Source of the DNA: a virus
Virus record (IMG/VR): IMGVR_UViG_3300042904_000688
Coordinates: 1 to 24,205 of that record
Direction: 5' to 3' (one strand)
Length of the DNA stretch: 24,205 bases
Numbering within the stretch: the first letter of the stretch is position 1; each line of letters opens with the position of its first letter. The position numbers and the translations under genes are program-made. Shown here piece after piece: positions 4,860 to 13,008 of the stretch. Under the pieces are notes generated by a model, which worked only from the letters and a program-made list of their open reading frames with translations, was not told the origin of the DNA and did not search any database.

Positions 4860-6334
4860 TGGCGAATTACACACCTCAATATAACTTTTCAAAGCGCGGC
4901 TTTAACCCTTTATTCTGGCATATTCTGCCACTACTGCGCGACCCCAAGATAAGATACATCAAAGTTGAGGGCGGCAGTTCGGCAGCTAAGACATACACCA
5001 TATGCCAGGCGTTGTTAATTGACGGTTTCCAGAATGAATATAGCTCAATGGTATTCAGGCGGCAATTAGTGGACGTTGTGGATAGTATATACGCCTCATT
5101 CAAAATGGCAATGTCCGGGCTGCAACTGGATTATTATGAACAGCAGCAGCACTTATTCAAAGGCAAGGACGGCAAATCAGATGTGCGCTTTCGCGGTCTG
5201 GAAGATGAGGAAAACATTAAGGGTATTGAGAAATTTAATGTTGTATACTTTAATGAGTTCAACCAATTCGAGGAACATCTATTCGACCAAGCCAAATTAA
5301 GGTTACGCGGCAGGCCAAATCAGAAGTTTATCTGCGACTGGAACCCGGTAAGCTCCGAACTATGGCAGTATAAGAACGATATAGACCTACAGGAATGGGA
5401 CGAATTGCCACTATTCATTGAAGGGAATGAGTATAGCCAGTTAAACCCGGAATACTCATTTAAACGCATCAATAAAGCCGGGGATACTGTTTGGATAAAA
5501 GTTACTTACCGGGATAACTATTGGGTTGTAGGCAGACCCAATGGCGGCGGCTTCATAGATCAGCAGACGTTAGATAATTTCGAGAAATTACGGACACAAA
5601 AACCGCACCTATACCGCATCTATGCCAATGGCGAAAGGGGTATTATGCGTACCGGGGCTGAGTTCTGGAAACAGTTTAACGAGGATAAGCATGTTAAGCC
5701 GTTGAAGTATGATAATGAAACAACCATACACATCTCGCTAGATGAGAACGTGAACCCATACGTTACTATATCTGCGTGGCAAATCATTGAAAAGGAGATA
5801 AGGCAGGTGTATGAAATTCCATGCAAAAACCCTGATAACAACGCGCCCAAAGCCGCGCAAAAACTGATTAAATGGCTTAACCAGATAGCGTATAAAGACG
5901 TTGTTTATATCTATGGCGACCCATCGGCAGATAAGCGCAGTACGGTAGACGAAAACAGTCGCTCTTTTTATGATAAGTTTATTGAAGGGTTGAAAACAGC
6001 AGGTTTTAGAATAGTAAACAGGGTTGAAAAGTCAGCCCCGGAAGTGGCATTGTCTGCGGCATTCATCAATGACATTTACGAGTACGAACATGCCGGGTAT
6101 AGCATCACAATAGGCGATAATTGCACCACAAGCATTTACGACTATATCAGCGCGAAAGAAGATAAAGACGGCAAAATGCTCAAAGAAAAGGTGAAAGATA
6201 AGGTTACAGGCGTTACATATGAACCTGTTGGGCATTTCTCGGATGCAAAGCGCTACTTCATATGTTCCCTGCTCAAATCAGAGTTCAATAAGTACAAATC
6301 GAGGGGCAAGCCCGTTTGGGGCATCAACGCATAA
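4859..6334 (+). CDS. terL: Terminase large subunit (ATPase and nuclease)
   Basis: Motor that pumps DNA into the prohead and cuts concatemers. The 491 residues contain an N-terminal ATPase with a deviant Walker A, GGSSAAKT (38-45, Ala43 where the classic loop has Gly), a Walker B-like VVYFNEF (128-134, catalytic Glu133) and a CDWNPVS coupling motif (about 159-165). The C-terminal RNase H-like nuclease shows acidic residues Asp295 (ISLDENVNP), Asp354 (YGDPSADKRS) and Asp462 (GHFSDAKRY). The start is GTG at 4859, overlapping the small-subunit stop. Length is in the usual range and both domains appear intact. After it comes a 185-bp gap with a structured terminator-like element before the portal gene. 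Confidence 0.95.
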   Translation: MANYTPQYNFSKRGFNPLFWHILPLLRDPKIRYIKVEGGSSAAKTYTICQALLIDGFQNEYSSMVFRRQLVDVVDSIYASFKMAMSGLQLDYYEQQQHLFKGKDGKSDVRFRGLEDEENIKGIEKFNVVYFNEFNQFEEHLFDQAKLRLRGRPNQKFICDWNPVSSELWQYKNDIDLQEWDELPLFIEGNEYSQLNPEYSFKRINKAGDTVWIKVTYRDNYWVVGRPNGGGFIDQQTLDNFEKLRTQKPHLYRIYANGERGIMRTGAEFWKQFNEDKHVKPLKYDNETTIHISLDENVNPYVTISAWQIIEKEIRQVYEIPCKNPDNNAPKAAQKLIKWLNQIAYKDVVYIYGDPSADKRSTVDENSRSFYDKFIEGLKTAGFRIVNRVEKSAPEVALSAAFINDIYEYEHAGYSITIGDNCTTSIYDYISAKEDKDGKMLKEKVKDKVTGVTYEPVGHFSDAKRYFICSLLKSEFNKYKSRGKPVWGINA

Positions 6335-9527: not shown

Positions 9528-10355
9528 ATGATAAAAGCTGAACATAAAGAGAAACTAAAGAAGCTCGGGATAGATGTGGATGCAATTATAGCAGCACACA
9601 ATGACACAGCCGAGAAAGACATAACCGTTCCAGACGGTACAATACTGACCGATGAGCAACTTACCGCCCGTGATGATGTAAAAGTAAAAGAAGGAGAGAA
9701 GGCGGGCGAAAAGAAAGCTATTGAGATAGCAAAAACAGAACTGAAAAAACATGCAGGGCTTGATATTTCCGCAGACCGTTGGGGCGATGTAGGCAAGGAA
9801 ATAAAAGCGGCTATCAACGCTACCGGGGACACTAAATTAACAGCATTGCAGGAACAGAACGCCGCATTGCTTGCAGATAAAACAGCCTTGGAAACCGCGA
9901 AGGCGCAGGCGGAAACAGCCCTGAAACAAGGCATGTTTGAAGTGAATATCCTTGGCAAACTGCCCGCTAACTCCCTTGGCTTATCCCCTAAAGAAACGTT
10001 TGAGCTTGCCAAAATTCGCGGCTATCAGGCGGAGCAAACAGAAACAGGGGTGGTATGGAAAAAGAACGGTGAGGTGATGAAAGACCCGACTACACATGCC
10101 CCATTGACCGAAGATAAAGCGATAGCGGCTATATGGACGGCAGAGAAATGGACACCAACGGTAACGCCACCATCAGGCGGCAGGGGTGGAGCGCAAAAGC
10201 CATCTGGCGGTAACTCCGCAGCAGGCTTAATGAGCAAATCGGCGGTTGAGGCTGAATGGGAGGCGAATAACCCCGGCAAAGGAATTGCAACCCCTGAGGG
10301 TATGTCGTTCTATGCTGAGTATGCGAAACAGCCGGGTTTTGATATGTTTAACTAA
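9528..10355 (+). CDS. Probable capsid scaffolding protein
   Basis: Scaffold proteins guide capsid-protein assembly and then leave the prohead. The 275 residues show the expected features: highly charged, Ala/Lys/Glu-rich, no cysteine, and a clear coiled-coil segment (about 101-135, TALQEQNAALLADKTALETAKAQAETAL). A Gly/Ser/Pro linker (about 214-233) leads to a compact aromatic C-terminal segment (about 238-275) that could be the capsid-binding end. It is the last large gene before the capsid protein gene, the usual place for a scaffold. No protease motif is visible. The assignment rests on composition and position rather than a signature motif. Confidence 0.65.
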   Translation: MIKAEHKEKLKKLGIDVDAIIAAHNDTAEKDITVPDGTILTDEQLTARDDVKVKEGEKAGEKKAIEIAKTELKKHAGLDISADRWGDVGKEIKAAINATGDTKLTALQEQNAALLADKTALETAKAQAETALKQGMFEVNILGKLPANSLGLSPKETFELAKIRGYQAEQTETGVVWKKNGEVMKDPTTHAPLTEDKAIAAIWTAEKWTPTVTPPSGGRGGAQKPSGGNSAAGLMSKSAVEAEWEANNPGKGIATPEGMSFYAEYAKQPGFDMFN

Positions 10356-11121: not shown

Positions 11122-11153
11122 AAAAGCTCAACATGGCGGGGCTGGGCTTTTTT
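11122..11153 (+). terminator. Rho-independent terminator after the micro-gene trio
   Basis: AAAAGCTCA (11122-11130) pairs with TGGGCTTTT (11143-11151; one G-U pair) around a 12-nt loop, and the T run continues to 11153. It isolates the micro-genes from the capsid transcription unit. Confidence 0.68.
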
Positions 11154-11195: not shown

Positions 11196-11238
11196 CCAAA
11201 AATATTTTTGGTGGAATGAATATTTATATTCAATTTTG
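11196..11238 (+). promoter_or_regulatory. Capsid promoter overlapped by two perfect palindromes
   Basis: TTTG (11207-11210), a 20-nt spacer and CAATTTTG (11231-11238, one mismatch to TAnnTTTG) form a Bacteroidota-type promoter with a start near 11245. Two perfect palindromes cover it: CCAAAAATATTTTTGG (11196-11211), whose right half is the -33 box, and TGAATAT-TT-ATATTCA (11217-11232), which reaches into the -7 box. Their centres are 21 bp apart, two helical turns, the geometry of paired operators for a dimeric regulator. Confidence 0.6.
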
Positions 11239-11251
11239 TATCTGTAAGAAA

Positions 11252-11316
11252 TAAACGGCGTTTACAACTTACACCTTTCTTCCGGTGCGGCGCACCAAAA
11301 TACTACGGCGTAGTAT
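11252..11316 (+). promoter_or_regulatory. Three GGC-loop hairpins in the capsid mRNA leader
   Basis: Three perfect short hairpins lie in a row: TAAAC-GGC-GTTTA (11252-11264), GGTGC-GGC-GCACC (11284-11296) and ATACTAC-GGC-GTAGTAT (11300-11316). The stems differ completely in sequence, but all have a 3-nt GGC loop closed by C-G. They would lie in the 5' untranslated leader of the capsid mRNA, 44 nt or more before the ATG. Possible roles are mRNA stabilisation or binding of a loop-specific protein. Confidence 0.7.
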
Positions 11317-11360
11317 AGTTTACCAAAACAATTTTCTATAACCTTTTAATCCTATCAACA

Positions 11361-12431
11361 ATGGCAAACTACGCCTTAGGTGCGCTCGTTAATGGGCAAA
11401 CCATAGTCACCAAAAAGTATAACGCCCCGGAGCAACGCAGGCAGATGCCTACCGTAATGGATTTGGCGTTGAAGAACCAAACAATCTCTATTCCTGACGC
11501 ACAGGCTCTAAGGGTTTCCCCCTTGCGCACCGTAGATGTTATCTATAACAAGAACATCGCAGCAGGAAGCGCAACAGCCAAAGCATACAACCACACAGGA
11601 ACCATCGGGGATAGCGGCAAAATAAACGTTACCTACCAACAGACTGTAGAAACGTTCAGCCTGCCCCGCAAAATCGCATACAACAACATTGAGAAATATA
11701 CTCAGATGTTCGCCAACCAATACGAAATGGCTTGGAAGAACCTGAAAACAAGGCAGGATGTTCTGGCGCTTGCTTACCTGTACGCAAACCGCGTGCAGCT
11801 TTCGCAGGCTACAATGGCGGCACGACTTGCATCTGCTTTTGGCGCAGGCGCAACAAATTGGAATGATACAAACTACGCCCTTGAGCTTTCGAGCGGCGAC
11901 CAATCTCTGTTCATTGCCAATGTAAAGGCGGCTTTGTACGCTTCTTACTACAATACTGAATACGACATTATCGCGGACGTTCAAAAGTCGCTGCAAATTG
12001 AGAACTACATGAACCAAGGAACAGGCAACTATTCCAATACTTCATGGCAGTTTGCGGGCTGCAATTTCGCACGCACGCAGATGAATATTGACAGCAACTA
12101 CACAGCAGGTACGGTTCTAGCAATGCCAGCCGGTGCTTTCGCGGGTCTGTGCTGGAATGAGGGGCTTAACGTAAAAGGCGACTTCGGCGACGAGGGCGGC
12201 TCAATCGGTATCCTGACAACTGCCAACGATCCGTTTGGCGGGCAGGCTATAGCGGACATTTCCATGTACTCACAAAGGGCAGACACCAGCGCCGACACAA
12301 CAGGCGGCTCACCCGAGGACATTGTTGACCAATGGGAGCTTACCCTCACAATGGGCTATGTAATACCCCCATTGTCCACCGCAGGCGATAGCACCGTAAT
12401 GGAAATATCACAGATAGCAGGCGTATCATAG
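11361..12431 (+). CDS. Probable major capsid protein
   Basis: Probable main shell protein of the head. The 356 residues have a typical size, no signal peptide, and the mix of helix (about 115-160, MAWKNLKTRQDVLALAYLYANR) and beta-rich C-terminal part (about 240-356) expected of an HK97-type fold, though no diagnostic motif can be read by eye. Position supports it: after scaffold, with its own promoter, an elaborate leader and an upstream terminator, consistent with very high expression. The leader ends in CCTATCAACA directly before the ATG, similar to the other module-start genes. The alternative is another abundant structural protein; the 13019-14200 protein is the next candidate. Confidence 0.7.
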   Translation: MANYALGALVNGQTIVTKKYNAPEQRRQMPTVMDLALKNQTISIPDAQALRVSPLRTVDVIYNKNIAAGSATAKAYNHTGTIGDSGKINVTYQQTVETFSLPRKIAYNNIEKYTQMFANQYEMAWKNLKTRQDVLALAYLYANRVQLSQATMAARLASAFGAGATNWNDTNYALELSSGDQSLFIANVKAALYASYYNTEYDIIADVQKSLQIENYMNQGTGNYSNTSWQFAGCNFARTQMNIDSNYTAGTVLAMPAGAFAGLCWNEGLNVKGDFGDEGGSIGILTTANDPFGGQAIADISMYSQRADTSADTTGGSPEDIVDQWELTLTMGYVIPPLSTAGDSTVMEISQIAGVS

Positions 12432-12474: not shown

Positions 12475-13008
12475 ATGAAAAATCTGATAGTTCTCTTTTT
12501 AATATCCCTTTGCTCTGTATTCGCTTACGGGCAAAGCGGGCAGCCTACGGTGCAGGGTAACGGGGCAAGCCCGTACTTTACTACTGCGATGCATATTGTA
12601 ACGCCACAGGGCACAGCAAAAGCCATCGATACACTCTCTAACGCTGACACGGGCAGGGATTACATTTGGGTGGGTGAGGGATTTGATATGTCCTTTGAGC
12701 TTACGCGCCGGGTAATATCAGGCACGGTAGCGACAGAAAGCCAAAAATTGTACGGCTACAACAACGGCGGGCGCAAACTTACAGCAGCACAGGCGGCAAC
12801 CGTTACAGGCACAGCTATTACGGGTAATACCACTTATTGTGCCGGGTGCGTAGCAACTACTTATACAGTTGTGCCGACAGGGACAGTAAAAACCAAATGG
12901 CAGATACCGCGTAGTTCGGGTTGTTTGTTTGATAATTACTATCTCGAAACAATACAGACCGGAACAGTAACCGCAACTCACTCAGCAACAGTAAGCACAC
13001 AACGATAA
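12475..13008 (+). CDS. Exported protein with Sec signal peptide inside capsid operon
   Basis: A 177-residue protein whose first 20 residues (MKNLIVLFLISLCSVFAYGQ) form a textbook Sec signal peptide: two-residue basic start, hydrophobic core, and a cleavage region of the kind common in Bacteroidota (cut probably before Gln20). The mature part is Thr/Gly/Ala-rich, beta-like, with Cys122-AG-Cys125 and a further Cys near 158, suggesting disulfides formed in the periplasm. It lies 43 bp after the capsid gene and 10 bp before the next virion gene on the same strand, so it is co-expressed with structural genes. Function unknown: a superinfection-exclusion or envelope-modifying protein is possible; alternatively the segment is retained and it is a structural protein. 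Confidence 0.7.
   Translation: MKNLIVLFLISLCSVFAYGQSGQPTVQGNGASPYFTTAMHIVTPQGTAKAIDTLSNADTGRDYIWVGEGFDMSFELTRRVISGTVATESQKLYGYNNGGRKLTAAQAATVTGTAITGNTTYCAGCVATTYTVVPTGTVKTKWQIPRSSGCLFDNYYLETIQTGTVTATHSATVSTQR

Follow-up and report, generated by a model that had tools for sequence, protein, structure and literature searches.

The window, by which we mean the whole 24,205-nucleotide stretch analysed, is a prophage that sits in a contig of a 4.25-Mb genome. Its genes run in the order terminase, portal, scaffold-like gene, capsid gene and tail genes, with a tail operon of more than 10 kb downstream of the capsid gene; the features around the capsid leader are listed in Table 1. The protein encoded from position 11361 is an HK97-fold major capsid protein: it matches PHROG 7231, the profile of its family matches PDB chain 9ww9_F ('Capsid protein', E 8e-20), and the Foldseek matches of its AlphaFold model (pLDDT 81) are HK97-type phage capsids. 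At the position of a cement or decoration protein (12475-13008) the encoded protein starts with a signal-peptide-like stretch, MKNLIVLFLISLCSVFAYGQS, which is odd for a capsid-associated protein.

Table 1. Features of the capsid leader and its surroundings in the window.
Feature	Position	Strand	Basis
Scaffold-like protein with GGRGG motif; as a guess, a candidate binder alongside the capsid protein	9528-10355	+	Conservation, loop tracking, alignment
Intrinsic-terminator-like hairpin and T run, closing the upstream terminase-portal-scaffold unit	11123-11150	+	Relatives versus controls
Predicted Bacteroidota-type promoter, with TATTTTTGG as the -33 region (11203-11211)	11203-11238	+	Sequence
Predicted -7 element CAATTTTG, near TAnnTTTG	11231-11238	+	Sequence; similar elements 5' of many arrays
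Outer stem, 5' arm TGTAAG, at predicted mRNA 5' end	11243-11248	+	Fold
Array hairpin 1, TAAAC-GGC-GTTTA, inside the outer stem	11252-11264	+	Sequence, shuffles, fold
Outer stem, 3' arm CTTACA	11268-11273	+	Fold
Array hairpin 2, GGTGC-GGC-GCACC	11284-11296	+	Sequence, shuffles, fold
Array hairpin 3, ATACTAC-GGC-GTAGTAT, ending 44 nt 5' of the ATG	11300-11316	+	Sequence, shuffles, fold
A/T-rich spacer to the start codon; final 30 nt 77% A+T, little structure	11317-11360	+	Folding, spacing
Major capsid protein, HK97 fold; preceded by the array	11361-12431	+	PHROG, PDB profile, AlphaFold/Foldseek

Three hairpins with a GGC loop had been described at 11252-11316, and we found their sequences and coordinates to be exactly so. 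They are the only perfect GGC triloops with stems of at least 5 bp in the 24-kb window, where dinucleotide shuffles give 0.36 expected; triloops in general are not enriched there (23 found, 26.5 expected). When the 241-nt leader was shuffled 2000 times, none of the shuffles carried three hairpins with the same loop. A chance origin of the array is thus excluded by both shuffles. An outer 6-bp stem, absent from the preliminary description, encloses hairpin 1. RNA folded from 11243 forms this stem and all three hairpins in its minimum-energy structure, whereas folding from 11245, the start that had been assumed, loses the outer stem and hairpin 1. The folding energy of the leader is unremarkable (z -1.3), as is the median across the leaders of relatives (z about -1.45), and folding energy was dropped as proof of structure. 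Such ordinary energies argue against selection of the element for stability itself; what stands out is the recurrence of one loop and, across relatives, the pairing.

We also noted two complementarities between the leader and the start of the gene. The 3' half of hairpin 3 (GGCGTAGT, 11307-11314) is exactly complementary to capsid codons ACTACGCC (11368-11375), and that of hairpin 2 (GCGCACC, 11290-11296) to GGTGCGC at 11379-11385, near the capsid start, which makes an alternative pairing of leader and coding start conceivable.

The array in related phages

Capsid relatives with 25-60% identity were found in nine further genomes when 399 genomes of the same host family were searched, and two scans of IMG/VR added 19 and 17 more. 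Relatives among GenBank phages were Pseudanabaena phage Pan5, Polaribacter phages P12002L/S and a Rhodobacteraceae phage. The outcome depended on the query: the window capsid as a single-protein query returned no relatives from viral and genome contigs, although alignment-based scans did find them. The nine relatives taken together diverged too far for their alignment to serve as a seed, and a scan seeded with the L004/L005 alignment found nothing.

The array is present in about 36 of the 39 non-redundant capsid-family relatives, which come from host-family genomes, IMG/VR contigs and cyanophage Pan5. A typical leader has two to four short hairpins, mostly three, with unlike stems and a single loop type. 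An automatic check recovered one to four hairpins in 34 of 36 leaders, with only one in five of these. Leader L002, for example, has GCAGGT-GGT-ACCTGC, GCAGT-GGT-ACTGC and GGAGT-GGT-ACTCC, while that of Pan5 has GAAAGC-GGT-GCTTTC, GTGGC-GGT-GCCAC, GGGTA-GGT-TACCC and CCGTA-GGT-TACGG. The preliminary description had proposed looking ahead of related capsid genes for covarying stems with GGC loops. Arrays and pairing stems were there in about 36 of 39, but GGC itself proved to be only the window phage's version. The idea that fold and loop are conserved rather than stem sequence holds, as homologous leaders keep their arrays with new stems and a shared loop.

No array was seen in the capsid leaders of the Polaribacter and Rhodobacteraceae phages or of L408, nor, by eye, in that of L591, a distant relative from another family of the class. 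The Polaribacter and Rhodobacteraceae phages have a gap of just 34-50 nt ahead of the capsid gene.

Some features at the 5' end recur in subsets of leaders. The predicted mRNA starts with GTCA in L002, L003, L004, L017, L021, L028, L032 and L033, where outer stems around the first hairpin (GTCAACT/AGTTGAC, GTCATTA/TAATGAC, GTCATT/AATGAC and GTCAAC/GTTGAC) show compensatory changes in the 5'-terminal stem. In L007, L052 and L081 the first hairpin, at the 5' end, has the loop TCCCC, unlike the other hairpins of the array. We considered a conserved CAACA-T-rich spacer motif and rejected it as not general, with only 5 of 36 leaders matching (0.31 expected in shuffles).

Pairing, position and exclusivity

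We analysed pairing in the leaders with GGY loops. Perfect GGY triloops number 35 in 28 non-redundant 200-nt leaders, against 0.16 expected from dinucleotide shuffles (at most 2 in any of 300 sets), an enrichment of about 200-fold; the rest of the same loci, 250 kb, holds 8, which corresponds to 0.18 expected in the leaders. To avoid circularity, GGY sites were then picked by their inner two pairs only and the outer pairs scored. Pairs 3, 4 and 5 are formed in 90, 83 and 78% of leader sites, versus 39-40% across 13 complete or near-complete phage genomes. The 41 five-bp GGY hairpins have 27 different stems. The stems had been said to share only their closing pair, which is true in the window; across the family, however, G-C predominates at pair 2 and purine-pyrimidine at pair 3. 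The leader thus has the covarying RNA structure with conserved unpaired contacts that is expected of an autogenous leader.

The closing pair tells which nucleic acid is used. In sites selected on pairs 2-4 only it is standard in 43 of 43 (TA 24, CG 10, TG 6 and AT 3). Since a U.G pair would be A.C on the other strand, six U.G and no A.C closing pairs place the active element in RNA of the mRNA strand. The hairpins are also perfect inverted repeats in DNA and could in principle be palindromic operators for a DNA-binding protein. We regard this, like chance, as most improbable, given that the stems are unrelated, that U.G but never A.C closes them, and that the loops occur on one strand only.

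The position of the array is as regular as its pairing. Of 39 relatives, 22 have an intrinsic-terminator-like site upstream, compared with 15 of 400 random control segments, and TAnnTTTN-like promoter elements directly precede many arrays. From the end of the last hairpin to the ATG the distance is 41.5 nt in the median and mostly 39-47 nt. An array directly after a promoter and ahead of a tail operon of more than 10 kb could be an antitermination RNA (put-like or nut/boxB-like), whose hairpins modify RNA polymerase for reading the late operon beyond the capsid gene; boxB is itself a small hairpin with a conserved loop. Such a role is improbable, however, because a terminator-like site within 150 nt past the capsid gene occurs in only 2 of 39 relatives, the array does not precede the first late unit, its spacing to the ATG is conserved, and the loops vary widely within one host family despite a conserved RNA polymerase.

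Within the sequences covered here the array is also exclusive to this gene, though others may occur beyond them. Each phage genome searched has one, solely before the capsid gene, and the 13 whole or nearly whole phage records contain no other cluster of NGY triloops with the same loop. No array was found in 417 kb of host genome, and every array of at least three GGY hairpins in 3.34 Mb of mixed loci precedes this capsid gene. A 14-mer hairpin scan that took no account of the capsid led, among the matches listed, to at least two more leaders of the same gene (L052 and L081); otherwise the matches listed from the 14-mer scans were mostly chance ones in GC-rich genomes. In the sequences searched, then, the element is confined to the leader of the gene it would regulate, as an autogenous leader should be.

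A two-site hairpin scan was uninformative, being swamped by coding repeats. In L350, an unrelated phage, two GGT hairpins (GGAGC-GGT-GCTCC and TTGAGC-GGT-GCTCAA; 5140-5175, minus strand) lie 13 nt 5' of a scaffold-like gene that itself precedes a capsid gene, perhaps by coincidence, perhaps as another use of the element.

Loop coherence and candidate readers

The loops across phages are mostly GGT or GGC, but NGT, NGC, GGGA, GGTN tetraloops and AAGRYRCN octaloops also occur. Thus L026 has three GGGAT loops; L398 three octaloops (AAGATATC, AAGACGCA and AAGACGCC); L402 also three octaloops, AAGGTGCT twice and AAGGTACT; and L400 three tetraloops, GGTT or GGTA. The GGC loop had been taken to be conserved: the loop is indeed coherent within each leader, but it varies between phages. 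With loop types assigned by eye from the leaders (as also for the protein comparison below), likeness within a leader is 0.523, against 0.454 when permuted (maximum 0.519), and so exceeds all 2000 permutations. On the capsid tree, at least 11 changes of loop class are needed. In close, well-supported pairs all hairpins have switched, as between the window (GGC) and L029 (GGGA), and between L026 (GGGA) and L016 and L024 (GGY); a less-supported pair sets octaloops in L402 against tetraloops in L405. We know of no cause of such concerted replacement other than a common ligand whose specificity has changed.

The reading we consider plausible, if just short of probable, is that the array is a multi-site RNA operator, read in trans by a protein that the phage itself probably encodes, a head protein being the likeliest, and that tunes translation of the capsid. 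Both protein-binding sites and a stability element had been suggested from the window. Sites for a protein, whose binding we infer, fit better than a plain stability element, in view of the concerted loop switching, the ordinary energies and, in most leaders, the near-constant 39-47 nt to the start codon. A stabiliser of the 5' end, in which outer stem and hairpins would protect the capsid mRNA from decay, whether internal or 5'-end-dependent, and so prolong its life, with loops of little importance or bound by a host factor, is nonetheless suggested by some features. The outer stem starts at the predicted +1 in the window and in L002, L003, L004 and L033, and the capsid protein, needed in large amounts, has a promoter of its own and a terminator upstream. 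It is unlikely, as, besides the energies given above, long octaloops are common, and it leaves the single loop per phage, the concerted switching and the distance of about 41 nt to the ATG unexplained. If a host factor were involved, one loop per host family would be expected, whereas L002, L007, L009, L010 and the window differ.

The same variation bears on a host post-transcriptional regulator as the protein that binds the loops. Both host groups seen, Bacteroidota and cyanobacteria, have single-RRM proteins, as controls of the RRM search showed. CsrA (PF02599), however, was not found in the genome that carries the prophage, where positive controls matched; the 417 kb of host sequence, as noted above, lacks arrays, and phages that share a host family differ in loop type. 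A host reader therefore seems quite unlikely. That loops differ among phages of one host family, yet change together within each phage, makes a phage-encoded binder the most likely.

We searched for a candidate among the phage proteins. RRM (PF00076) was found in 0 of 14 phage records, again with positive controls matching, and Pfam gave no domain in the six proteins around the array. The genes near the array common to nearly all these phages are head genes only; the scaffold-like gene, lying about 1.1 kb 5' of the capsid gene, occurs in 47 of 49 relatives. Loop similarity between phages tracks the similarity of capsid (r 0.59), scaffold (0.59) and portal (0.51), but not that of terminase (-0.06) or of a 393-aa downstream protein (0.10). 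Controlling for capsid similarity leaves the scaffold with a partial correlation of 0.27 (0 of 500 permutations). Capsid and portal similarities are themselves correlated (r 0.92), and as the leader sits within the portal-scaffold-capsid module, linkage alone could yield the tracking, which is compatible with a head protein as the reader. Most members of the scaffold family have a GGRGG(D/N) motif near their C-terminal part in the alignment, degraded in L408, L409, L010 and the Rhodobacteraceae phage. Motif and array do not fully coincide: Polaribacter phages have a GRGG motif in the scaffold without an array, and L409 and L010 an array with a degraded motif. The motif as an RNA binder is therefore a lead only.

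An operator read by a phage protein might work as follows. A strong promoter, insulated from the upstream genes by the terminator, would start the capsid mRNA, whose first ~75 nt would form two to four hairpins, usually three, of which the 5'-most is often enclosed in a 5'-terminal stem. One trans-acting protein would recognise each apical loop (GGC here), and several sites would allow tight, cooperative and dose-sensitive binding ~40 nt 5' of the ribosome loading site, by which capsid synthesis would be tuned. The scaffold or the major capsid protein would be the best candidates, and autogenous feedback would match capsid output to assembly. Binding could repress or activate: with an open start codon region and the last hairpin ~40 nt away, it is not evident that the start codon would simply be occluded, and activation is equally possible. 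The broader proposal, of a widespread and undescribed class of RNA operators in which a head protein reads the loops, protein and loops co-evolve, and an HK97-type capsid is autoregulated in translation, is possible but rather doubtful.

Comparison with known systems

The array is a real, conserved RNA element and apparently an undescribed one. The preliminary description knew of no element of this form, and we came to the same view: Rfam 15 gave no family at the gathering cut-off in the window or ten relatives (the best sub-threshold match had E 1.2 and was on the other strand), and we found no description of such a capsid-leader array in the open-licence literature. It is compact and strongly conserved, and it stands ahead of a single gene, both in Bacteroidota phages and in a cyanophage. 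Little is understood of how tailed phages adjust, after transcription, the proportion of capsid protein to scaffold and portal, and the natural loop variants make protein-RNA specificity directly testable.

Leaders bound by CsrA/RsmA, and the Rsm RNAs, resemble the array in having hairpins, in the leaders at the 5' end, with unrelated stems and a common loop motif. Their loops are GGA, however, whereas those of the array are GGY or others, with GGGA only in the L026 and L029 types; the array also has a single target gene, its loops change between phages, and CsrA is lacking from the host genome as searched. The boxB/nut and put RNAs, too, follow closely on a phage promoter and are small hairpins whose loops are recognised; unlike them, the array keeps a fixed distance to a start codon, serves a single gene and, in all but 2 of 39 relatives, has no terminator-like site to bypass within 150 nt of the capsid gene.

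Two further precedents concern phage head genes. The scaffolding protein of P22 controls its own synthesis, so that a head-assembly protein is tuned post-transcriptionally by a head protein; no such hairpin array is known there, and here the controlled gene would be the capsid gene. The Mu-gpT-DE motif has been reported as a structured RNA in the neighbourhood of a phage major head gene; no Rfam family matched the window or the ten relatives scanned, though Mu-gpT-DE may be outside that Rfam set. The closest analogy in function would be the coat-protein operators of MS2, Qbeta and PP7, in which binding of a shell protein to a small hairpin of defined loop controls translation. The array differs in belonging to a dsDNA tailed phage, in having multiple sites, in preceding the capsid gene itself and in having a candidate binder only. 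If a head protein is the reader, the array would be a dsDNA phage counterpart of the MS2 coat-operator pair, and its variants a new family of orthogonal RNA-protein pairs.
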